Below are positions 2,544-49,409 of a stretch of 64,000 nt of DNA, one piece after another; within the stretch, counting starts at the first letter, position 1, and each line of letters begins with the position of its first letter. The notes beneath the pieces were generated by a model. The model was not told where the DNA came from and ran no database searches. It was given only the letters and a program-made list of their open reading frames with translations. The stretch is from NCBI GenBank assembly GCA_946699065.1, contig CAMPDV010000202.1:372001-436000 (forward strand), given 5' to 3'. The position numbers and the translations under genes were made by a program. This stretch comes from Loxodes magnus. Its lineage: Eukaryota; Ciliophora; Karyorelictea; Loxodida; Loxodidae.

Positions 2544-3482
2544 ATGTGGAACGAAAATATCAAACAAATAATTAAGGTTTTATACTTAAGAAAAATTCTA
2601 AGAGGGGCAAACTATTAATGAAGAAATAAGTTGTTTGGTAGATTCGGAATCGGAATAATAAAATATGAAATTTGTTCTAACTTAAAAGGAAAAAAGCAAA
2701 TTTAAAATATATTCACTGTGAAAAAAAATTCTATAACTAAAAAAGTTTATTCATTAGTAAATAGCAATTTCAGCGAGTAAAAAATTGACATCATAGAGAC
2801 AGATAGCTAATACACTTAAATTGAGTAGATAACAGATGATTATTTCATTTCATCAGGAGGACTTTATTAAAATAAAAGTCGTTTTATTATTCATTCTGAA
2901 AAAACTGGAACTTAAAATTTTTAAATGCAACATAATAGAACCTATCATAGAACTAGAAATGACTAATATAAATATGTTTACATAATATCAGGATTCTCCT
3001 AAAAAAATAATAAATATATAGATGAGGAAAAATGTGAAATATTTAATATGCAAATTTAAACTTTCAAAGAACTAAATTAGATAAAAAAACCAATAAGTTT
3101 GTTTGGATGCGATTAAGTGTATAGAAAAGTTTACACATTCGGAGGATATAATTGAAAATATGAAAGTTAAAATCTAATTCAATAATATGATGTAAAGAGA
3201 AACGAATGAACGATTTGTGAATAGTAATTGCTAGAGTAAGGTACAACTTCAGCAGCGTGAATATCATAATACAATTACTTTCTTATTTATGCAAACGGAT
3301 CTAACGCTAGCACTCAAATATATGATTTAAAAGAAACAAAACTTTAAGGAAGCAAGTTCAATTTTAGTTGTTTTGATTTTACTTAGCCAATTTAAGCTAA
3401 AAATCTATTATTCTAATTTAACTGATAAAGTACTTTGTATGCTTATGATTTTATTACAGGACTTTGGAGAGAGATAAAATGA
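2544..3482 (+). CDS. Kelch-repeat protein 1 (intact)
   Basis: 312 codons from ATG 2544 to UGA 3480-3482, with UAA/UAG as Gln and internal UGA as Trp. Kelch blades are visible: VYTFGGYN followed by a YDVKRNEW module, a second blade with FLIYANG and IYDLKE, and a last one with LYAYDF and LWREIK. A paralogue-specific N-terminus (FGRFGIGIIKYE) is shared with four other copies in the window, which fixes start and frame. Trp of the blade motif NEW is encoded by UGA here. No BTB, F-box or transmembrane segment is seen, so it is a small stand-alone propeller-like protein, probably a protein-interaction scaffold. The gene converges with kelch 2 downstream. Confidence 0.85.
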
Positions 3483-4301
3483 TTTACAAATAAAACCTTA
3501 TTCAAATTCTATTTTTCTTAATTTAATTTTAATATTTTATAACTAATGCAAAATAGATTTTAAATCAAGAATTTTAAAATTTCAATTTATTTAATAATTT
3601 TCGGCGAAAAATAAACTTTACTAAATTAATAGATTTATCAAAATTGTAAAATTATCGTTTAAGCGAAATTATAAGTAAAATGATATAAAAAATTATTTAA
3701 TTTTAGTTTCTATAAGAGTTATATAAAGAAACTATTATTGTTCTTCATCTTCTTTTAAAGTATTAAAAATATTTCCGTTATAATTTTAAACTTAATCTTA
3801 AATATTGTTAATTCTTTGGTTTTAAATTTAAATAATTTTTATTTATTTTTCATTTATTTTATTTAAGCGAGTTTATAGTAGAATATATATAGATTTTTAA
3901 TTATAATTTAACGAAAATTTTATTTAAAATTCTATTTTTTGAAATTTTTATAGCTAAACAATATTAAACTTATTTAAATCTATATAACCTCCAACTTTAT
4001 CTTTATCTTATAATTTCTTAAAAATCACATGGATATCATTTTTATAACTAATATATTTATTTATTTGAAGGCAACATCAACCAATTTTATAACATTTCAT
4101 AAAGATAACCTGGCTCTGTAAATGAATATTACAATTTTAAGTATTATGCATACTAAAGGTTAGAGATTTTATTTATTTTCTTGTTTAGATAATTTATAAA
4201 ATAAATGTAAAAATAATTATAAATTTAATATAAAGCTTTTAAAATAAATAAGATGTAAGCATTATTTTATAAAAATATTGGGTTTTATTAATTATCACTA
4301 T

Positions 4302-5420
4302 TCAAATTAAAATTGAACTTAATTATTTAATTTTATTACTTTTAAATAGCTAAAAGGAAAATATGGTTATAAAAATAAAATTTATGTTTTAAGAAATATT
4401 TTTAGCTTCTTAAATAAGAGTGTAGTTTATTTATTGTAATATATGGAATAAAAAATATAAAGTTGAAGATTATTATTATTTCAAAAGTCCTTTCACTTCT
4501 CTCCATATGCCATTATTTAAATCAAATGAAAATAGTATGCTTTGCCCGTTAAATTAAAATACTCTTTTTCCTACTAAAACTGGCTGAGTATTATCAAAAA
4601 AACTATATAGAAACTATTCTCCATAAGATTTTATTTCTTTTAAATCAAATGATTGAGTTTCCATAAACCCTCTATTTGCATAAATTAAAAAAAATTATTT
4701 ATAAGGAATCCAAATAGCCGAAGCTTATGCTTTTTATTTCAATTACTGCTCACATTAATTTCAATAATTCCTCTAACTATCTAGATTCTGAATTATGTTT
4801 AAACATTAATTTTGTAATCTATTAAATCCTCCAAAAGTGTAGACATTTTAGTTAACTTAATCACAACCAAAAACACTAGCAGGAGTTAATATTTACTAAA
4901 TGCTATTAAATTTTAAAAGATTCATGTTAAAAACTTCGCATTCTTCAATGTTTACTTCTTATTTATTTTCGAGAGTAGTTCCTGATATAATAAAGACAAT
5001 GTTACTTTTGTTAAAGCTTGTTTTATGTAAGTATCTATCAAATTACATTTACCAGTTATAGCATTTATTTTAGTTTGTTGTAATTATAAATCTATTTTAA
5101 TTTTTGTTTAATCCACCTGATATTATCATTCTTTAGCCAAAAATCTACTCAATTTGAGTATTTAAATTATCCGTTTCAACTATATCAATTTCTTATTCTT
5201 CGAAATAAGAAATTGGAATTGAAAATGATTTTCTTATATTCGATTTTCTTAGCATAGTGAATATCTTTTTAAGGCTTTATAAATTAGTGCATACTTCATA
5301 TTTAGTAATTCCAATTCCAAATTTACCAAAAAGACGGGTTCCATTGTAAAATTTTTAGTTTCTTAAAATTTTCCTCAAGTATAATATTTTAAAAATTTAA
5401 GCATTCTTATTGTCTTACAT
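4302..5420 (-). CDS. Kelch-repeat protein 2 (intact, C-terminally extended)
   Basis: Single frame of 373 codons including the UGA at 4302-4304. The start aligns with the other copies (M..., then ILYLRKILRN and FGKFGIGITKYE). Kelch motifs include VYTFGGFN, FLIYANR and a last blade ending IWREVK. Sister copies stop right after this WREIK-type end. Here the UGA just downstream is out of frame by one base, so the frame continues about 60 Gln/Asn/Lys-rich residues further. This suggests loss of the ancestral stop by an indel. In the motif RNYW the Trp codon is UGA, aligned with RNEW in other copies. Function is inferred only as a binding scaffold. Confidence 0.83.
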
Positions 5421-9833: not shown

Positions 9834-10814
9834 TCAATTAATTATTTTATTTAATAAATCAGAAAATTAGTATTAGTTAACTTCTCTCCACTTTCCTATT
9901 TTTAAATCATATTAAAATAATTAACTTTGACCATTAAATTAAAAAACTTTTTATCCTGATAAAACTGGCTGTGTATAATCGAAGGTTTGTTATCTGTATT
10001 TTTGTCCGTAAACTTTTATTTGTTTTAAATCGAATATTTAAGTATCTAATTGATATCCATTCGAATAAATAAGAAAATATCATTTATGTGGGATTCATAT
10101 AGCAGACGCAGTTCCTTTTTGATTTAATTTTTCCTCACATATAAGTCATTCGTTTATTTAGCAATCAAACTTTTAAATTATATCAAAAAAGCTACTCTAT
10201 TTCCATATTCTTCCACCGAAAACAAAAGTTTAGTTATTCTAGTAATTGCAGCCAAACAAACTTACGGGAGATTTTATTTATTTTATTCTGTTAAAATTCT
10301 AGGTTTCAAAATGAAATACCTCACATTCATTTAAGTCTATTTATTAATCATTTTTAATTGTAGCTCCTGAAATTATATAACTAATACTATTTTAATTGAA
10401 GGTAGTTCTATGTAAATACCTTTAGTATTACATTTAAAATTTCAGAGTTTAGTTTGATTCTTAATTAAACATAAAACTATTTCCATTTAAGTTTCTTCCT
10501 CCTGATATAAGTATAGTGTCTTCTTGTATTTATTCAACTTAATTATAACCATTGCATTCAAAATCCATGTCAATTTAAATTTTTTTGAAATTTTTATTAT
10601 CTAGTTAATAATTTTATCTAAAGCTTGTATTTCTTATTATTGTAGATATATTTCTGAAAGCTTTTTAATTTTTCAGATTAGATCATAATTCGTATTTAAT
10701 TATTCCAATTCCAAACTTACCAAATATTTTGCTTCCTTGATAATAATTTTAATTTCTTATTTTTTTTCTTATATATAGTACTCTTAATATCAATTCCATA
10801 TTTTCGATTTGCAT
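9834..10814 (-). CDS. Kelch-repeat protein 3 (intact)
   Basis: 327 codons including UGA at 9834-9836, one uninterrupted frame. It aligns end to end with kelch 1 and 2: N-terminus VLYIRKKI and FGKFGIGIIKYE, then SGGRN, YIISGA, VSLFGCN, a NEWLICEE module, AIWIPHKWYFLIYSNG and a last blade VFQFNGQS...KWREVN. UGA is Trp in NEW and HKWY. The protein lacks signal peptide or membrane segments. Its role is inferred as a beta-propeller binding protein. The ATG chosen matches the start of the other family members. Confidence 0.85.
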
Positions 10815-19572: not shown

Positions 19573-21651
19573 ATGTAGGATATTCAAGAATTAAATGAAA
19601 ACTAAAGCAAGAGTGAAGATGATTTTCTAAATTAAAGGAATGAAAATTAGCTTGAAATAAGCCAATCTCAAGAAAATTTAAAAGCTAAAATAGATTTTGA
19701 ATTAAATGAAATCAGAAATGCTAATGAGAAATAAAATGATATTGACGTTTAAGTGTAAAAGTATCAGCATGAAGAAAGTTTTTCTTTATCAAATAGGGAT
19801 ATTTAAAAATTAGACTATTAGGTATAAAAAAACGAAAGTTATTGTGATAAATAAAGTTAGAGTTAAATAATAACCAATTCTGGATTGCAAAATCTTGGAA
19901 ATACATGCTGACTAAACTCTGGATTATAATGTCTCTTGCATACTCTTCCATTAATTTAATATTTTCTTTCAAAAGAGTATAAAAGGGATATAAATTTATA
20001 AAATTCGTTTGGAACACGAGGAGTTTTAGCAAAAGAATTTGCATAGGTTGTTAAAAGTACATTCTAAAGAAAGGACGCTTTTTGTCCATTATAATTCTTA
20101 AGATAGTTATAAAGGTTCCAGCCTAAATTTAAAGAAGGCTAATAAAATGATGCTGCTTAATTTGTAAATTTTATTCTTGATGCGTTGCATGAAGATGTGA
20201 ACATAATAGCAGAAAAGCATTATATTAAAGGAGAAAAATATTAACCTAACTTAGATTAAAATTAAGCTTAGGAAAGCTGAAATAGATATCTATTAAGAAA
20301 TAATTCAAGGATAATAGAGATGATGAATGGATAATTTGAAAATATTTTGACTTGTAAGCAATGCCATTAAAAAACAAAAAGTTGAGATCCATTTTTAACA
20401 ATGTATGTAGAAATTCCAAGCAAATAATTAGTTAATTATAATATCGTTTTTGTTCCTTCAAAAATTTAAGATTAAATTTAAATTATAAAATCTATTGGAA
20501 ACACTAAATTAAACTATCTAGATATTAAAAATGAAATTTTGCAAAAAGTTTAAATGAATCAAGAAAGCGACATATTTATTTGAAACAACGGAGAAAAAAA
20601 ATTAGTTTCATAAAATTCCTGCTTAGAAAAAGAAATTTATGCTTTTGAAGTAGACGTAAATAGTTCAGATGTTTACAGAACTATAATTGAATTTGAAAAA
20701 ATAACCAGAATTTAAAATGATTTCAGTTCTATTTGATGTTTTGGAAGTAGAGAAAAAGATTAAAAATAAAATTTTTAAGTTCCATAAATTTTTGAAATGA
20801 AAAAATCATGAAATTTATATTAACTCTACTAAGAAATAGATAGGAAGTATTTCTGTAATAATGTTTGTTCAAAAAATTAACAAAATTTTCAAATATTTCT
20901 AATAACTGACTAAAACTAAAATTAATTTAATTTAAGATAATAAGACTTTATTCAAAAAAATAATTTTAAGGATCATCGCTAATAGATTGAATTTGTTAAG
21001 CATGGAGCTTTTTTTAAATGTTATTTAGCCCAATAAATGGTCGAAATAGAAAGTAATATTTGGACAGTAAATTAATTTATATAAAATGATTATTTCAAAA
21101 TAAAAATTTCTTTTTGAGATATGCTAGAAAATAGACTAGAATAATTGAAAATGTAAGAAAGATAAATTAATATTCAAAAATATCCCTTTAAATAAAGAAG
21201 AGAAATAAACCTATATGATTGCATTAAATATTTATAAAACGAAGAAACTTTAGAAAAATTAAATTCTTTTTACTGTAAGAATTGTAATAAATAATGTAAT
21301 GGAATTAAATAAGTTTAACTTAATAAGACTCCTGAGATATTAATAATTTACCTTAAAAGGTTCATATAAAACGGATATCAAATAGAAAAAAATTACGCAA
21401 GAGTGGAATATCCTGAAAAATTAGATTTGAAATAATTCTTACCTGAAAATTATTAAGAATCAACAGTATATGAGCTATATGCAGTAAACATTCACTCAGG
21501 AAGTGTAAGAAGTGGTCACTATTGAACTTATGCAAAAGTAGGATAAGATTGGTATGAGTTCAATGATTCAAGAGTCAGTAAATGCTTTAATATCCAAAGT
21601 GAAAATGCCTATGGTCTTTTTTATCAAAGATGTAGTAATAAGCAAATGTGA
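19573..21651 (+). CDS. Ubiquitin-specific protease 1 (USP/UCH family), intact
   Basis: 692 residues, single frame from ATG 19573 to UGA 21649-21651. Cys-box LQNLGNTC(UGA)LNSGLQC has the catalytic Cys at codon 112. The next codon is UGA, equivalent to Trp in USP2. Family landmarks follow: NDAAQFVNFILDALHED, a RNNSRIIEMMNGQF segment, Cys-pairs for zinc in the thumb (TCKQC and FYCKNC), the YLKRF motif, and the His-box SGHY(UGA)TYAKVGQDWYEFND with His at codon 649. All parts of a working cysteine protease that removes ubiquitin are present. About 110 Gln/Glu-rich residues precede the domain. At least eight internal UGA codons are read as Trp. Confidence 0.92.
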
Positions 21652-22720
21652 TACAAACTAATCTAATTATATTATATTATGATTAAAAAAAATTTGAAAC
21701 ATTAAATTAAATAAATAGGAATCAAAACTAATGTAAAAATTTAATTATCATTAATTTTATTGTAACTTTGATGATCTGATATAAAATTTTAAAGTTTTAT
21801 TTAATTAGTTTCATTAGATTAATTTAATAAAATACTAAAAAATAAAAAAATTTAATTAAAATACAAGAAAAAAAATAGCGAACGCTTAATCATGTATTTT
21901 AGAAAGTTTTTTCTTTAATAGTTCAAAAAAATAGGATTATTTAAAACTTTTTGAAAAATAAATCAAATTAAAAATATTTTTTAAATAAATTAATTAATTT
22001 CCATAATAATAAAAATTTATTGAATTTTATAAAATTTCTAATAATTTTCAGTAGATTTTAAGATAATAATGTTTTGCTGCACATATAATAAAAAATAAAA
22101 AATTTATTATATAAAAAAATGGCTAATAAAAAATAACAGTCTCCAAAATAGACAAAAAAAATTTTCAAAACAATAAAAGTTCATTTTAACTTAAAATTGT
22201 TTATTTGATATAAGCAAAAAATATACTACTTAAACGCAATAAAGAAATTTATTTTTTGTGAGTTCTCTGAGAGATAAAAGATAAAAGAGTTAAAAAAATA
22301 CTAATAATAATAAAAGAATAAAAAGCAGAGTTAAGCTATTTAAAATTTATTTTAAATATAATTTCTTTAATTATAAATTTATATAATTAAATACTAAATT
22401 TTTACACATCTTGAATACGAATTTTTTTTCTTTAAAATATTTTCAAATAATTTAAACCACATATTTTTACGATAATTTCTTTTTATATAAAATTAATTTT
22501 TCTCAATAATAAAATTAATAATTTCTTCTTTTTTGTATTTTTAATTAAAATAAAAAGACTTTATATAATTATTTTGAAATATAATTATTTAAATAACAAT
22601 ACTATTATTTGCTCGATTTCTATTTTTAAATTAGCATACATATTTTATTTATTCAACTTAAACTATTTATTTCTTTTAAGTAAGTTAAATATATCTTATT
22701 TTAATTTTAATCTAAATTGA
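21652..22720. other. AT-rich spacer
   Basis: Downstream of USP1 and upstream of SINE B copy 2. Nothing I can support was seen. Confidence 0.4.
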
Positions 22721-23046
22721 AAAGATGGCTGGAACTGAGAATGACCTTCGTGACTAAACTTTCTGGTTTTATGGCTAGGAATAAGTTCCTTTACTGTCGC
22801 TGAGAAAGTCCCTGGTCAGAGTCATTTTCTGAAGGGAACGCTTTCTTTAAGATTATCCGCTCTTGGTAGGGGCTTGAAGCCTGGTTACTCATAGCGATGG
22901 AGCTCCCAAGCAGCTGTGCCTGGAGTACAACAGAATATTCCCGTTATTCCATAAAAAGAGAGCGTCGGGTCGTGCAATCGGAAAGGAGTTTCCGGTCCAA
23001 AAGCTTTTTTAGTTGAAATTAATTAATTAATTTTAATCTATATTCA
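22706..23046 (+). mobile_element. SINE family B, copy 2
   Basis: Sense copy starting AAAAGATGGCTGGAACTG, with the core TGTCGCTGAGAAAGTCCC, AGATTATCCGCTCTTGG and GGAGCTCCCAAGCAGC, and ending TCCGGTCCAAAAG, TTTTTTAGTTG and an (AATT)n tail. The flanks TTTTAATCTAAATT and TTTTAATCTATATT form a near-perfect target-site duplication. Coordinates include these flanks. Confidence 0.8.
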
Positions 23047-26381: not shown

Positions 26382-28391
<2,010 letters not shown>

Positions 28392-29745: not shown

Positions 29746-30090
29746 AATTGCAATATTAACAATAATTAAAAAGATGGTGGAAGATGAGATTGACCTTCTG
29801 AATCATATTTTCTAGTTTTATGGCTAGGAACAAATTCCTTTCCTGTCGCTGAGAAAGTCCCTGGTAAAAGAAACCTTTGCAAGGGAACGCCTTCCTTTTG
29901 ATTATCCACTCCTGGTAGGGGCTTGAAGCCTGGCTGCCCAATGCGATGGAGCTCCCTGGCAGCTGCTTTTCGAAAGCAACAGGATATCCTCGTTATCCCA
30001 TGAAGGGAGTGTTGGGGTCGTTAAACTGCAAGAAGTTGCAGTCCAAAACTCTTTAAGTTTAAAATTAATTAATTAATTGCAATATTAACA
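29746..30090 (+). mobile_element. SINE family B, copy 3, with 16-bp target-site duplication
   Basis: Insert flanked by AATTGCAATATTAACA at 29746-29761 and 30075-30090, so the element plus one repeat is 329 bp. The body has all B landmarks (GTCGCTGAGAAAGTCCC, AGGGGCTTGAAGCCTGG, GGAGCTCCCTGGCAGC) and a TTAATTAATTAATT tail. The perfect duplication shows recent retroposition in the sense direction. Confidence 0.9.
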
Positions 30091-32019: not shown

Positions 32020-32960
32020 TTAAAACATGTAATCTAACCAAAAAATCCTATTATTTAAATTTTGATTTTAAGAAAAGTTAAAAGAAAATTTGATTAATAA
32101 AATGGAACTAGATTTCTTGGCAGATTGGAATTAGAATCATCAAATATGAAATATGTTATAATTTAAAAGATTAGAAAGAATTAAAGAAGATATCTACAGT
32201 AATACGAAATACTAACTTAAAGAAAACTTACTTAGTTTATGAAAGTAAATTCAGAATGTTGCAAATTAATTTAGATCTAAACTCCGTTCATACTTAGGTG
32301 GAATAAATTTCAGATGAAACTTTATTGGTATCAGGAGGATTTAATTAAAATAAAAATCGATTTACTTTGCATTCTGAAATAAAAGGAACTTAAAGTTTGT
32401 AAATGAATTCGGAGATGTAAACATAGAACTTGCTTTGATAAAAACAGATTTGTTTATATAATTTCAGGAACTTCAAACCAAAATTAATAAGAAATAGATT
32501 TAAAAGAATGTTAAATCTTTTATTTAACTTCTAAAAAGTTTTAAAGTATTAAAAATATTAAAAATCCAACTAGTTTTTTTGGTTGTAGCTATTAAAATTA
32601 AAAAATTTATGCTTTTGGAGGTAGAAGCTAATAATAAGTATGTTTTTTGATACGATTTAAGTATTTGATAGTAAAAGATTAGAGTGAGATTATTGCGAAT
32701 AAAAGAGAGACTCAAAAAGCAACAACTTCATCTATTTGAATTTCATAAAACAGAAATTTCCTCATTTTGGAAATTGATGCTAAGTAGAAACTTTAATTTT
32801 TGATTTAAAATAAGTGAAAGTTTAAGGATGAAAGTCCACTTCAACTGTATTTGATTATACTCAACCTGCTCTAGTAGGAAGTCGAGTATTTTAATTTCCA
32901 GGGCAAAATTTACTATATGTATATGATTTAAATATTGAAACATGGAGAAAAATAGAATGA
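32020..32960 (+). pseudogene. Kelch-repeat pseudogene (copy 4)
   Basis: Aligns over its full length with the intact kelch genes but only by changing frame at least four times: ILRKVKRKF and GTRFLGR, then GIRIIKYEICYNL, later FVYIISGTSNQNQQEID with IYAFGGRS, then YDY/FDT-type blade remnants, and finally VFDYTQPALVG and TWRKIE with UGA at 32958-32960. Frame breaks lie near 32120, 32440, 32630 and 32760. These scattered single-base shifts are typical of decay and are too many to be introns. Confidence 0.75.
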
Positions 32961-33300
32961 TTTAAAGATCTTTCATTTTTAATAAATAAGAACAACTATA
33001 ATTATATTTTTATTCTGCTATTTCAAAATAAATAATATATTTACTCATATTGAAAAAGTTCTTGCCATAAAAACAAATTAATTCAATCTATATTAATGGA
33101 GATTAAAATTAAAAATATGCGAAATTTCTTTTAATATAATTATTAATCTATGAATGAAGATATGTAGAGAACGAAATGAGGAAATAAATAGGTTGAAAGA
33201 TGAAAGTTTACAATAAATAGATTAAAAAATAGTTTTTCTAAGGTTTATAGAAGTTAATTAAAATATTCTTTAATGATATTAATATTTCTTTATTAATAAA

Positions 33301-35060: not shown

Positions 35061-37286
35061 TCAAAGTTCTTTATCACATCTTTGATAATACAGGGCATAA
35101 GCATCCTCACTTTGCACTTATTTACATTCTTCTACTTGTGAGTCATTAAAATTATATCATTTTTCTCCCTCTTTTGCATACGCTCAATAATGTCCTCCCC
35201 TCGAAATTCCGGCATGTAAGTTCACAGCATATAGATCATATATCGTAGAATTATTGTAATTAGTAGGTAAAAATTCTTTAAGATTTAACTATTGCTAATA
35301 CTCTACATTTAAAGTATTTTTTTCTATCTATGAATTATTCTGCTTAAATCTTTTAAGGTATATAATAAATATTTATGGAACTTTATATAAACCTAATTTT
35401 TTAGTTCCATTTACATTAGCTTTGCAAGCTTTACATAAAAATTAATTATTTTCTTTTAAATGTTCCTTTAATTATAAGAACTTGAAACAGTCTTAAAGAG
35501 TAATTTTGCTTTATTTTACAAGATTTAGTTTTATAATTTCTTTTTTTTATTATCTATAATTTAATATGTCTTCAGATTAGTTAGAAGGATTCTCATATTA
35601 TATTTTTATTCTAAACATGCCTTTTTAAATAATTTCTTTTATAGTTAATTTTTCTTCTTTCCTAACTATATGCCCTTCTCTACATTTTAGTGAATTGCAC
35701 AAAAAGCATTCTTCTTGCTTTAGTTCCAAATCTTATTTTCGAAATTTAATAGATAAGGTTTTGTTAATTTCATGGATGATTGAATTTTTATTAGTTTCTT
35801 ATAGTAATATTATTTTCAAAGGGTATTCTTAAGAATTTCTACTATATTAAGGTGACAGATTATTTAAATATCTACTCTAAACTGTTTAGTAAAGGTCAAT
35901 TTAATTTATATCAAAATCTATTATTTCATAAGCATTTTTCATCTATTTCTGTTCTTATTCTTCTAGATTTGCTTATTAATAATTAATTTCAACGAAAGTT
36001 CTAAATGTGTTCTAGCTAATGGGGTTTACTTCAAAGGCATAAATTATACTTTCTTCGAAATGATCTAAATATTAGCCAAGAGTTTTAAAAGTAGCGAAAC
36101 TATTACTTGCATTATTTTATAAAAATAAAACATTTTCCTCATTTTAGTTTTTAATTTATTTTATAATGTCTTATTTTATTACAGCTAATTCCATGGTAGG
36201 GTATAATGTTATTTCTAATTTTTTAGTTTACTCTTTGAACTTTTAGGGAATATATATTACTTCAATCTTAATTACTTTAGGTATTTCAACACAACATAAT
36301 TAAAAGGGATCGAAAATTACTGATTTGTTCTTGCATTTTTCACATTTCAATGTTGATTTTAACTATCCATGAAATAAATCTACTATTTTGGAATCATTTC
36401 TCTTTAAATACCTTTTCCAGCATTCTTAGGCAACTATTTCATCAGATCTTCCATCACTAGACTTACCTTCTATATAAGGTTTAACTGTAATTTTATTTAA
36501 ATCTTCGTGAAGAGCATCAAGTAGAAAGTTAAGAAATTATTGAGAATCATGCTATTAGCCTTCAGTAAACTAAGGAGCAAATTATATGAGTTTCTTTCTG
36601 AAAGAAGTAGGATCATAAATTTATTTTTGTTATTTTCTTTATTTCTTAACTATATTTTTGAACTCTTTTGTTAAAACTCCTTTAGTACCAAAAATATTTG
36701 ACTTATTTAATTCATTTTTACATTATTTAGTCAAAAGATAGTCAACTAGAGGAAGAGTGTGTAATAGGCATTGCAATCCGGAATTCATTCAGCAAGTGTT
36801 TCCTAAATTCTTAAATCCCATTAAAAATAATTAATTAGCTTCCTAAGATAAATTTTAACTACAAAATGTAGAATTTAAGGAAAAAACATAGTTTTAAGTT
36901 TTTTAGATATTGTTGTTATCTTAGTTTTTTGCTTATTATAATTATTCATTGCTTTTATTTTAATGATTTTCCTTATATTCTTCTTAGATTTAATCAAGTT
37001 TTAATTCTTCCTGGTTAGTAAATTCTACTTAATTTTATTCTTTCATTTTTTTATCATTATAGCTATCTTTTTCATTTTTACTTTTTCCAGTTTCACTTTA
37101 CTTTTTCTCTTGTCTTTTAGATTTATTTTCAGACTACTAAATTTGGTTGCTTTTTTAATTTTTTGTTTCTATATCCTTTTGATTTGATAAGTTATTAATA
37201 TTTTTATCTTGAGAGACTTTGTTAGTCTTTTTACATAAAAAGCAGATAAAGCATTTCTTTAACCTTTAAGATAAGGTAGAAGTCAT
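35061..37286 (-). CDS. Ubiquitin-specific protease 3 (USP/UCH family), intact
   Basis: 741 residues in one uninterrupted frame to UGA 35061-35063. A 155-residue Lys/Gln/Asn-rich N-terminus precedes Cys-box FKNLGNTC(UGA)MNSGLQCLL, catalytic Cys at codon 165, the next codon UGA as Trp. Then come [27 protein letters not shown], zinc pairs (CFLCNSLKC and FLCKAC), YLKRF, and His-box GGHY(UGA)AYAKEGEK(UGA)YNFND with His at codon 699. It ends shortly after [13 protein letters not shown]. All catalytic parts are present. It shares a 96%-identical 289-bp stretch with USP2 although the rest is much more diverged. Confidence 0.92.
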
Positions 37287-37487: not shown

Positions 37488-37829
37488 AAAAGAACTTCAA
37501 TAATTAAAAAGATGGTGGAAGCTGAAATTGACCTTATTGACTAAACTTTCTGGTTTTGCGGCTAGAAACAAATTCCTTTCATGTCGCTGAGAAAGTTCTT
37601 GGTCAAAATCATTTTCTGAAGGGAACACTGTCTTCGAGATTATTATTTCTTAATAAGGGCTGGAAACTTGGCTGCTCATAGCGATGGAGCTCCCTAGCAG
37701 CTGTGTCTGGAACATAACAGGATATCCCCGTTATTCTTAAAAAGAAAACGTCGGGTCGTCAAACTGGAAAGGAATTTCCGTTCCCAAAAAACTCTTGTAG
37801 ATAGATTTAATTATAAAAAGAATTTCAAT
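37488..37829 (+). mobile_element. SINE family B, copy 4
   Basis: Sense copy beginning AAAAGATGGTGGAAGCTG, with core ATGTCGCTGAGAAAGTTC, ATAGCGATGGAGCTCCCTAG and AACAGGATATCCCCG. Flanks AAAAGAACTTCAAT and AAAAGAATTTCAAT form a 14-bp target-site duplication with one mismatch. Somewhat more diverged than copy 3. Confidence 0.82.
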
Positions 37830-44883: not shown

Positions 44884-45678
44884 ATGAGCATCTCCCAAAA
44901 TGCCTACTCCCTAGCAGATTATAAGAAGAACAATATGATACTTTTACTCAAGTATTTGACAAATTTCAAATAATATTCGTAATTTAAAAATTTATTTAAA
45001 TGGTACAAACGATATTTCATATCAACAAAAGATTATATTGCACGCATAATGGAATTAGCAGACATTAATTAATTAATTTCAACTAAAAAAGTTTTTTGGA
45101 CCGGAAGCTCCTTTCCGATTGCCCGACCCGACGCTCTCTTTTTATGGAATAACGGGGATATCCTGTTGTACTCCAGGCATAGCTGCTTGGGAGCTCCATC
45201 GCTATGACCAGCCAGGCTTCAAGGCCCTACCAAGAGCGGATAATCTCAAAGACAGTGTTCCCTTCAGAAAATGACTCTTACCAGGGACTTTCTCAGCGAC
45301 AGAAAAGGAACTTGTTCCTAGCCATAAAACCAGAAAGTGTTGTCACGAAGGTTACTCTCAGCTCTCACCATCTTTCAATTATTGGAATTAGCAGACATTA
45401 ATAAGAGTAATTTACCGCCATTCAGAGATCAAAGAATTATAATAAAAAATGAAAAATTCCTCAGTGAAAATCTTACTTACCGCATTGCTTTAATAGGTTA
45501 GGAAAATAATATAAAAGAAGTATAAAAAGCTGAATTATTACAAATAATTATAAGAAAAGATGAAGGTAAAAATGAAGGTAAGATTTTTTGAAAGAAAGAT
45601 ATAAGCAGACTTATTCAATTGAGAAAAAAAGTTTTAGCATAACAAATAAAAAAAAATGTCAAAATATTATAGCATTGA
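44884..45678 (+). CDS. Hypothetical protein interrupted in-frame by SINE B copy 5
   Basis: ATG 44884 starts MSISQNAYSLADYKKNN, then YLTNFKQYSQFKNLFKWYKR and YIARIMELADIN. Immediately afterwards lies an antisense SINE B copy, and behind its second target-site duplication the protein resumes in the same frame: KSNLPPFRDQRIIIKNEKF, TYRIALIGQENN and a basic helix to UGA 45676-45678. Without the insert it is 153 residues. With it 264, because the 333-bp insertion equals 111 codons and has only one UGA in that frame. I do not recognise the family. Coding-like sequence may extend upstream of the chosen ATG. Confidence 0.62.
45050..45402 (-). mobile_element. SINE family B, copy 5, with 20-bp target-site duplication
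   Basis: Antisense copy flanked by TGGAATTAGCAGACATTAAT at 45050-45069 and 45383-45402. Its minus strand has the full set of B landmarks and an (AATT)n tail at the 45070 side. Long perfect duplication and little divergence from copy 2 imply a young insertion. Confidence 0.92.
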
Positions 45679-46130: not shown

Positions 46131-47700
46131 AAATTAAAAATTATATAATAAAATCTCTAATTTTCAATATTAACTCTATATAATATATTTGAATTTCATA
46201 CATATTTAAATTTCTATCTAAAGGATTATAAAAATAAAGATTTAATTATTTATTTCTAGTATTTATATTTATGGATTTTCTAATTTCTTTAATTTATAAT
46301 AAATTAGTTATAAGTAAAAAAATTGTAATTTCTATTTAATAAATAAAAAAACACATTTTTGAGGTTAATTTTCATATTAATAATAAAAAAGCAAAGTATA
46401 ATTAGAAAACTTTATTAACGCTATCATTACTAAAGTAAAAAAGTTTAATAGTAATCTATAATTTAGCTGCCTGTAAAAAATAAAGGTAGATATTTGAGCA
46501 AGATATATTACAAACTATTTTATTATTTTTATGAACATAATATGCATTTTAGAAGAAATTTTTTAAAAGATTCAATTAGAGTGCAACTTAGGTTTATAAA
46601 AATAATAATTATAATTTTTAATATTTTATCAAATCATATTTGTATTTTATATTTATAAATAAAGGAATGAGATAATCAAAAGGTTAAATATTATGTCTTT
46701 GGTGTCTCAGACTATACTACTAAATTTAAAATAATTAATTTCCGAGCAGTTAATTAAAAATTTTTTTTTGAATATTAAAAAAATTCAATTAAATATTAGT
46801 TGACAGAAGACAAGAATTATTTAAATTGGAAAAGTTGAATAAAAGACACTTAAAAGAACAATTGAAGAAAGAGAATACTGTATTGAACATTTCAAAAAAA
46901 AAAATTTTAAATCATTTTAGCAATTAAAATGATCAAAAAATTATTTCAGAGTAAATTTAAATTTTATTTTTTTAATTTACATATTTTCGACAAATAGATT
47001 ATTTAAAATAAATTCTCTTGGTAATATTCAAATTTAAAATAAAAAATATTTAATTTTCAATTTTTAAATCTAAGATAAATTTTTAAATAAAAAGTTAATT
47101 CCGATTAAAATTAATTATTTTATTAGTTAAAACCATGCAAAATTTTTATATTTATGATATTCTTCTATAAATAGTTTAATTTTTCTATATATTTTTAATT
47201 TAAAGTTTTTTCTAATTAATTTAAAAAGTAAAAAAAATGAATATTATTTAAAAAAATTATATTCTTAAAATGATTTATAAAGTAATACATTTACTTATAT
47301 TTTTTTATTCCCCATCAAAACCAAGTTTATCTTATTATATATGCCGGAATAAATAATTTTATTAATGATATTTAAAAGAGTTGTTTAAGTACTCTAAAAC
47401 TTTTCTCTTTTTTAATTAAAAAACATTTATATATTATTTTTTTATTTCTATTAAAAATAAAACAGAAATAATCTTCACAAAAAAATCATCAACGATTTAA
47501 TTATTTTTTTATTATTTAATTTTATTCAAAATTTAAATCTGAAGATTTATTAAGTTTTTAAAATATTTATTAATGCATTTTAAAATAAGAGTTTAATTAC
47601 TTTATTTATATATTTTTCTTAAGATAATTTCAATAAAAAACTACTATGAATTGTTAAAAATTTTAAATTTATAATTAATATTATTTTTAGTTTTGCTAAA
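46131..47700. other. AT-rich spacer
   Basis: Very AT-rich. Only a small coding-like patch near 46800-46880. Nothing that can be defined. Confidence 0.4.
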
Positions 47701-48441
47701 CATCCTATAAATATTTAAAATATCTTATTAACTATAAATATTTAAAATATATTACAATCTATAAATATTTAAAATGACTTACCCCCTATAAATATTTAAA
47801 ATATCTTACCATCTATTAATATTTAAAATATCTTACATTCTATAAATATTTAAAATATCTTACTCTCTATAAATATTTAAAATTATCACATTCTATTTTA
47901 AATAGAAATACCATCTTATTTTAATTTTTACCTCCTTTATTTGTTTTCTTTACTTTCTATATATTAAGAAATTTACTTTCTGTGCTTGTTAAATTACCAT
48001 CTTAACATAATTATTTTACAATCTTCTTTATTTTTTACATTCTATGATTAATTTTTACTCCCTTTCTTAGTATTCTTACAATCTTATTTATTTTATTACA
48101 TTCTTTAATTTTATTTATTACTTTCTAGTTTTTAAAGTATTATTCACTTTTGTTGAATATATTACACGCTTTTTTAAAATTTACCTCCTATACATTTATT
48201 TATAACTTTTTTGGAAGTCATTTTAGCCTTTTTTAGATTTTCTTACTTTCTTCTATTTTTTATTATTTAATACTTTCTAATTTTTATTATTTAATACTTT
48301 CTATTATTATTTTATTTACCATATTATTCTTATATTATAATGAAAACTAATTTTTATTAATTACTTTCTTTCTTTATTTTTTACCTCCTAAATCTCATTT
48401 TCTTACCTCCTTAAATTTATATTAATTACATTTTTTAAACT
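47701..48441 (-). repeat. Array of GT...AG intron-like units separated by 3-nt spacers
   Basis: On the minus strand this stretch reads as about 27 consecutive units. Most are 16-24 nt long, start with GTAA (some GTAT, GTGA), end with AG, and are separated by exactly 3 nt. A few units are longer and one spacer is 6 nt. Six units at 47705-47866 repeat with an exact 27-nt period and nearly identical bodies (GTAAGATATTTTAAA...TATAG), while their 3-nt spacers all differ (AGA, AAT, ATG, GGG, ATT, TTA). The other units have unrelated AT-rich bodies but keep the GTAA and AG ends and the 3-nt step. It follows directly on the RING-UBL gene, same strand. Whether the units are spliced is unknown. Confidence 0.85.
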
Positions 48442-48940
48442 TTAAGTCTAGCTAAGCTTCATCTTTATTCTCCATTTTAATTATTCTTTGCTAACTATCT
48501 AATTTTTCTTCTCCTCTATAAAGTTCATAAAAATCAGTGTCAATTCCTTCTAATTTTTCTACTTTTTATTTCAGTTATTCAATTGTTTCTCCTTCCTCTA
48601 CAGTTAAGTCTATTTCTTCTTTATTTTCGCTTAAAATCTTGACTTTTATTATTTTTGGTTTTTGCTAATAAGATAGCTCAATTTTAGTTTCTTCAATACG
48701 AAGTTATTTATATTCTTATTTACTTTCACTTTATTAGTTGTTTTAGCTTATTAAATTTTTCGGATAATTGAATGAAACTTTTCTACAATTTCTTTTTGGG
48801 CACTGACTAGAACCCTCTTTTTAGTATTCTTCAAGAATACAAATTTGGCATACTTGATGTCCACAAGGAAGGGTTATGGGAATTCGTATTTATGAGTCGA
48901 AATGGATAAAGCATAAGCTGCACCTGTTAGATTCAGCCAT
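48395..48940 (-). CDS. RING finger plus ubiquitin-like domain protein
   Basis: 181 residues from ATG 48938-48940 to UGA 48395-48397 if unspliced. An N-terminal RING has Cys7, Cys10, Cys26, His28, Cys31, Cys34, Cys47 and Cys52 (motifs CSLC, LPCGHQVCQIC, QCPKRNC). After a Gln/Lys-rich linker, residues about 97-170 form a ubiquitin-like fold (IIKVKILSENKEEIDLTVEE, GETIEQLKQKVEKLEG, FYELYRGEEKLD, LDLKFKK). RING proteins act as ubiquitin ligases, and the UBL could bind proteasomes or ubiquitin receptors. If the first GT...AG unit of the adjoining array is removed, a UGA forms across the junction right after LKFKK, which would be a natural UBL end. Confidence 0.82.
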
Positions 48941-49409
48941 ATTGATTATAATGGAAGTGAATTAAAGTAAATAGTTTAAATCTATTTATGTTTAATTCTA
49001 AACAAAATCTTAAGAAAATAAATAAGTTATTAATAATTAGATAGTTATTATACTAGCCTAAAGTTATTATTCAGAAGCTTTTCTAAATTAAGAATTCTAT
49101 ATTAACTTAATTAAACATTTAGCTATTATTTAATTCATTTTAATCCATATCATATCAACTACTATCTATCTATACTTATGTAGTCTATCATTTAGAACTT
49201 TAATGAAATCAATATTGCTACTATCATAGCTTTTTATACTATTAATAGTTATCTATTTATAAAGCTTTTACTTATAGTAGGAAGCATATACTTTTAGTAT
49301 AGCTAGTAGCTTTCTAAAGGATTATTTTGCTTACTTCATTATTTTATTAAGGCTTTTCTACTAAGCTAGCCTTTTTAGTTTATTTCGCTATTTAGAAGAA
49401 TTATATATA

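Follow-up and report, generated by a model that had tools for sequence, protein, structure and literature searches.

Chains of minimal GT...AG units around predicted one-codon exons in a RING-UBL gene family of Loxodes magnus

What kind of DNA forms a chain of tiny GT...AG units that follow one another at a distance of mostly three nucleotides, and what would such a chain do directly behind a gene? The question is raised by a locus in the ciliate Loxodes magnus, whose macronuclear genome is reported as 706 Mb with translation table 27 (PMC11441545). The window referred to below is the whole stretch of DNA that was analyzed (64,000 nt), and the gene and its array lie on the minus strand. The gene begins with an ATG at 48940. 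Its first exon (48430..48940, 511 nt, ending in phase 1) is open for 170 amino acids with TAA and TAG decoded as glutamine, and encodes a RING-type finger (residues 7-49, 48794..48922; Pfam E 3.7e-05, 24.1 bits, curated cut-off 25.2) followed by a ubiquitin-like domain, UBL (residues 98-164, 48449..48649). The UBL matches the Pfam ubiquitin model over residues 98-136 (25.5 bits, cut-off 25.4) and Ubiquitin_2 over residues 98-164 at 19.9 bits, under the cut-off of 23.1. Pfam scores are near the curated cut-offs: RING models exceed theirs in the C4 copy, and the ubiquitin model does so in the copies of the window, C2, and C5. RING and UBL domains side by side suggest a ubiquitin ligase or a ubiquitin-related scaffold. 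The 5' flank (48941..49063) is shared with paralogs, six of the seven tested matching the window, and is unlike in C4. The array starts at 48429, directly after the UBL exon, a correction to the original prediction, which placed it downstream of a RING-UBL gene at 47701..48441.

The array is a chain of 29 units (47732..48429), identified by a Viterbi parse, a junction list and shuffles. From 47701 to 48441, 25 AG-(3 nt)-GT junctions were counted on the minus strand, compared with 3.0 +/- 1.6 (maximum 10) in 1000 dinucleotide-preserving shuffles; with the satellite part left out (47884-48441) there were 20, compared with 2.4 +/- 1.4 (maximum 8). When the window was scanned in 700-bp stretches for AG-NNN-GT junctions, the best on the plus strand had five, and the 12 top minus-strand stretches (16-25) all overlapped the array. 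The parsed units are 16-24 nt long (mean 19.7, n=29). The parser presupposes GT...AG-like units and exon lengths that are multiples of three; the AG-k-GT spacing peaks at k=3 without the latter assumption. About 27 units had been counted originally; the parse gives 29. The 3-nt step holds for most gaps but not for three, which measure 27, 21, and probably 6 nt. The 27-nt exon (48320..48346) is equally long and equally placed in C4 and in the majority of paralogs fetched, and the 21-nt exon (48207..48227) is likewise homologous in C4 and in a majority of them. The GTAA...AG borders were likewise borne out in the main: 21 of the 26 AG-NNN-GT junctions within 47640-48480 carry GTAA, but the donor GT is missing from two units, one at 48125..48143 (ATAATAC...) and a satellite unit at 47705..47728 (ATAAG...) that ends the chain in this copy. 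The base preceding the terminal AG is T at 14/26 junctions, A at 11/26 and C at 1/26. The satellite part (47705..47889) consists of 23-24-nt units with a single type of body and differing triplets. As had been claimed, its 24-nt bodies are nearly identical and the gaps all unlike (AGA, AAT, ATG, GGG, ATT).

No excess of intron-sized GTA..TAG pairs was evident elsewhere in the window, and the window alone therefore says little about its other introns. Rfam gave no matches in the window. A dispersed repeat of ~320 bp is present in four copies that are 74-92% identical (22715-23031, 29764-30078, 37498-37813, 45064-45380), and similar sequence was seen by eye in the fetched copies L011 and L050. 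Diverged repeats of 0.6-1.0 kb with ~64-67% identity lie at 2550-5400, 9877-10806, and 32036-32964.

The tandem array is real and extends beyond one locus. Pattern and protein searches covered the L. magnus assembly (705,730,643 bases). A two-unit array pattern matched 63,956 times, compared with 5,251 for the reversed control, and a three-unit pattern 53,987 times, compared with 1,546. A serial search of this kind had been proposed with the original prediction. The counts are weak proof of the 3-nt spacing: a pattern with a 2-nt gap matched 311,244 times (reversed control 6,409), mostly, among the matches listed, in a satellite of ~79 bp with an invariant gap. This satellite, which has a paired AGAAGTAA motif (C3:2448900-2453472), dominates the listed matches of the 2-nt-gap control. 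Among 100 listed places of the three-unit pattern on contigs C1-C10, five loci account for 88, and the other 12 stand alone. Each of the five loci (on C4, C2, C5, C6, and C10) holds a RING-UBL gene, and at the C10 locus the RING-UBL match stops 5 bp short of the array. Arrays with at least six junctions were absent from 15 other 10-kb stretches, which were chosen by fixed position with content ignored.

The family is large. A protein search scored 150 of 2,793 first-look candidates, all 150 at E 3.9e-76 or better, and an array was present in all 20 paralogs fetched from among these. When as many as two mismatches are allowed, the 24-mer at the start of the window subfamily has 244 occurrences in the genome (control 0), frequently in clusters. 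RING-UBL copies on C473, C279, and C156 form one-strand clusters with spacings of mostly ~17 kb, 25 kb, and 60-120 kb. A search with the C2 protein was without matches at E <= 0.001 among 1,858 candidates. The largest parse of a single copy has 112 introns, and intron lengths across parses run from 15 to 41 nt; units of the sister subfamily (C2/C5) are mostly 25-29 nt, some longer. In the RING-UBL copy L050 (C6:137501-140500), inspection by eye suggests that the RING is missing its second half and that the array borders have decayed. This degenerate-looking copy is a possible negative control.

Are the units introns? The paralogs bear on this in several ways. Some were set aside for particular analyses: L040 (a deletion and a poor parse) for 19-paralog exon diversity, splice translation, phase, distal tails, and the TGA list; the window copy for phase and unit length and for distal tails; C4 for distal tails; and C2 for proximal exon structure, exon diversity, satellite units, splice translation, and triplet dinucleotides. 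Across 21 sequences, diversity is 0.014 at donor GT and 0.012 at acceptor AG, compared with 0.105 and 0.095 for GT and AG in coding sequence, so that splice borders vary about eightfold less than the same dinucleotides there. In the proximal units diversity is 0.013 at 94 splice columns and 0.098 at 280 interior columns, and none of 20,000 random draws was as low. Of 30 indel patterns in introns, 27 are of 1 nt and 29 are not divisible by three; none was assigned to exon or coding columns, with six ambiguous. Conserved borders together with intron indels that ignore the frame indicate that the units behave as spliced introns. Proximal bodies are unlike one another, which agrees with the claim that borders are kept while bodies diverge. 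The proximal exons are homologous, typically 3, 3, 3, 27, 3, 3, 6, 21, 3... nt long, with some lost or fused in a few paralogs. Across parses the exons measure 3, 6, 9, 21, or 27 nt, under a parser that presupposed multiples of three. Both L034 and L040 have GTAA at position 511.

The comparison with the diverged C4 copy extends this picture. When triplets are aligned in order, 57 of 75 nt match between the window and C4 (shuffled 30.8 +/- 3.9), with 83% identity over 21 homologous triplets and 39% for non-homologous pairs. Of 28 intron pairs, 19 are unequal in length, and in 17 of these the difference is not a multiple of three. Homologous introns outscore non-homologous ones, at 0.207 vs. 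0.047 per nt. The 79% identity of intron bodies between the two copies is inflated by low complexity and was rejected as evidence. Lengths of proximal units leave remainders of 0, 1, and 2 on division by three in 123, 213, and 170 cases; distal units are mostly 24 nt, which is divisible by three. Published L. magnus introns have a mean of 19.3 nt and a mode of 17, 93% are <=25 nt, and lengths divisible by three are reported as depleted (PMC11441545). Window units fit these lengths, and C2/C5 units are longer than typical (PMC11441545). An unspliced coding repeat was rejected, the unit periods being without a constant frame. A reading of the units as internal eliminated sequences (IESs) was also rejected: their ends are not TA-bounded, and L. 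magnus is reported to be without canonical IESs (PMC11441545). Removal of the units by splicing is thus well supported by comparison of the copies, and the idea of tandem minimal introns around one-codon microexons has gained from ordered triplet homology, eightfold border conservation, and frame-free intron indels.

The distal array is a 27-bp minisatellite in which a hypervariable triplet accompanies 24 intron bases that are nearly constant. Among satellite units collected by body sequence alone (n=1,005), deviations from the commonest base occur at the three gap positions in 36, 64, and 64%, compared with 0.4-6.7% for the 24 body positions, a figure lowered by the search, which allowed up to two core mismatches. 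The triplet positions of L051 have a heterozygosity of 0.47-0.62, its bodies one of 0.007. All 21 distal tails are distinct. L051 and L052, on one contig, have no differences in 1,049 nt of coding sequence and proximal array; their distal codons differ at 24 of 34 positions and agree at 10 (shuffled 5.9). Seven other close pairs agree in distal codons at the shuffled level (4-10 vs. 5.3-10.9), and L033 and L034 have blocks in common, with insertions and deletions. Turnover of copy number and order in a tandem repeat is a feature of coding minisatellites, and the L051/L052 and L033/L034 comparisons and the 21 tails show it in the distal array. Splice-like dinucleotides are rare within satellite triplets (n=883; null expectation in parentheses): GTx 0 (58), xGT 7 (114), AGx 48 (216), and xAG 12 (65), although the dinucleotide null is crude, few triplets dominate, and the non-splice GAx is also depleted (11 vs. 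51). Counting each triplet once per array (n=159) gives GTx 0/9.7, xGT 6/19.7, AGx 13/38.4, and xAG 3/12.2. Slippage of a 27-nt satellite had been named as the picture that would speak against splicing. It applies to the distal part only, and the variation there sits in the triplets rather than the bodies. The simplest account of this part would be a fast-turnover minisatellite in which either selection favors codon diversity or mutation is concentrated in the exons.

If the units are removed, exon 1 sets the frame: it ends in phase 1 in W-type copies (511 nt), C5 (1111 nt), and C2 (1036 nt). Spliced in phase 1, W-type copies give a semi-conserved stretch, in its commonest form IFEIMRKQYEQRESQNDF ... 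KKYWKY.ETRDE. The residues after it are variable, and Q, E, Y, K, N, D, and W stand out among them. The end of the array lies inside the fetched DNA in 6 of 20 copies, each of which runs, 57-81 parsed introns on, into (F/I)LIFDY followed by KWE. L044 has an altered middle of this shared C-terminal peptide and a 7-nt deletion in the last exon. By eye, C4 retains the triplets AAT, GGG, and AAA of the C-terminal block. The similarity of the C-terminal peptides partly reflects recent ancestry. In phase 1, C2 is open through the array until a TGA shortly beyond it, and C5 has two in-phase TGA inside. A WGL-containing peptide occurs just after the array in the sister-subfamily copies L049 and L011 (C2/C5 ends: RVWGLMI, CEWGLL). 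When three C-terminal tails were searched against the window, nothing but satellite units and short matches at other places turned up. The window copy, which has lost two donors, is probably a 3'-truncated, partly decayed member of the family.

Splicing at the first junction yields TGA in 23 of 23 copies and TGG in none, and a second TGA stands beside it in 5 of 21; in the subfamily of C2 and C5 this junction is without a TGA. Phase 1 contains 11 TGA in 2240 codons, compared with 127 and 189 in the other phases, and shuffling triplet order over whole arrays gives 47.6 +/- 5.2. Avoidance of TGA through triplet order is absent in the distal part alone (five observed, 2.9 expected), where its rarity in phase 1 is a matter of triplet composition only. 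Among 19 paralogs the diversity of 3-nt exons is 0.07-0.12 and that of intron interiors 0.071; the exons are not better conserved. Codon positions 2, 1, and 3 of the longer exons have diversities of 0.056, 0.081, and 0.114, a coding-like order, on 18 columns each only, and this order is not seen in the 3-nt exons. Paralogs of a USP15-like ubiquitin hydrolase lie on the minus strand of the window at 27180-28230 and 35187-36850, with a related stretch at 19882-20430. Each has an in-frame TGA: one reads NTC-TGA-MNS at the site of NTCWMNS in its paralog, which itself carries SKE-TGA-QREIN. Such codons agree with TGA as tryptophan. The tail of the array is likely translated, with TGA read as Trp.

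We therefore propose, with good though incomplete confidence, that the array is the spliced 3' part of a coding gene made of one-codon exons, and that the distal minisatellite reshuffles its codons. The spliceosome would remove each unit (16-24 nt in the window, mostly 25-29 nt in the sister subfamily) and join the mostly 3-nt exons, each supplying one residue in constant phase 1. The predicted protein would run from RING and UBL through a semi-conserved segment, and then a hypervariable one built from one-codon exons, to a conserved C-terminus. Unequal exchange or block duplication would reshuffle the codons of the distal minisatellite; since the constant 24 nt would be spliced out, such reshuffling would leave frame and splice sites intact.

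Three other explanations have to be weighed against this one. That the array is unspliced, with AGNNNGTAA a repeated DNA signal or a satellite spreading with the gene, strikes us as very improbable. The turnover of the distal satellite agrees with it, as do the borders of the young satellite, which are no better conserved than the bodies. It does not explain why proximal borders are so strongly conserved between mutually unrelated bodies, why unit lengths match those of published introns (PMC11441545), why triplet order is homologous across paralogs, or why GT and AG are rare within triplets. A different reading accepts splicing and takes the first spliced codon as a stop, so that the array would be an intron-rich, untranslated 3' UTR with triplets free to vary. 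The invariable and sometimes doubled TGA speaks for it, and so do the end of the UBL just ahead of the first junction and a triplet variation equal to that of intron interiors. We consider it unlikely all the same. In L. magnus the meaning of UGA, Trp or stop, is reported to depend on context, with termination confined to sites close to the poly(A) tail, and 3' UTRs have a median of 41 nt (PMC11441545); here the spliced remainder after the first TGA is 126-495 nt in parsed copies. The exons also stay at 3 nt, with none of the 30 indel patterns assigned to them, the C2/C5 copies lack the TGA, and a common C-terminal peptide lies beyond the arrays.

The remaining alternative grants both splicing and translation and differs in what drives the triplets: their variation would not be favored by selection, mutation being focused there or the bodies being otherwise constrained. 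Variation limited to exactly 3 nt suits this account, and the comparisons made here do not tell selection and mutation apart as its cause. The bodies of the older C4 array, however, have diverged as well, so that the body sequence is not needed as such, and we know of no mutation process confined to exons. We rate this alternative as somewhat unlikely.

Read as a spliced, codon-shuffling coding tail, the Loxodes array has partial counterparts elsewhere. PRDM9 zinc fingers are encoded by a coding minisatellite with few variable positions. Minisatellites of this type share with Loxodes the homogenized repeat, the few variable positions, and the fast turnover; their constant part is translated, whereas in Loxodes it would be spliced out and leave one codon per repeat. 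A single-nucleotide exon has reportedly been described in Arabidopsis, extremely small like the Loxodes exons but isolated, where Loxodes has arrays of dozens. Introner elements also produce many near-identical introns; in Loxodes the copies are in tandem, and neighboring triplets differ, so that a target-site duplication is not seen. Tiny introns are said to occur in Stentor, and the array units are like them in length and GT-AG borders. The same holds for the tiny introns of Loxodes (PMC11441545). The micro-exon genes (MEGs) of Schistosoma are described as chains of small exons, mostly multiples of three, that encode variable proteins (PMC10526429), and they resemble the Loxodes arrays in all three respects. 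Their exons are mostly 15 nt, 10-20 per gene, and their introns 0.1-5 kb (PMC10526429), compared with mostly 3-nt exons and up to 112 parsed introns of 15-41 nt here; their products are secreted and come from 35 genes, compared with a RING and UBL protein in at least 150 copies. A literature search covering main texts found no description of arrays with one-codon exons. In the main text of PMC11441545 the words 'orphan introns' occur a single time, in the legend to a figure, and the authors of that paper may already have seen some of these arrays.

Splicing of the arrays, if it occurs, would mean that a spliceosome takes dozens to about a hundred introns in a row, set around exons of 3 nt, out of one transcript, which would test the limits of intron definition and of exon size. 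The array is relevant, too, to the question of how introns multiply. Should the tails be translated, they would represent a new route to variable proteins, with introns as the substrate of recombination and single codons as the payload; one-codon exons between near-identical introns would allow codons to be reshuffled without breaking the gene. In other organisms, large families of ligases or adapters with variable parts recognize foreign or changing proteins. By analogy, a variable tail on a ubiquitin-ligase-like protein would be predicted to have a role in recognition. Tentatively, the Loxodes family may be an engine of hypervariability, in which recombination keeps changing single codons of a recognition tail that stays in frame and spliceable, with a logic like that of hypervariable immune or allorecognition receptors; skipping of one-codon exons would perhaps multiply this repertoire. 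The arrays also bear on why a ciliate reported to be without extensive DNA elimination retains a large, variable RING-UBL family.
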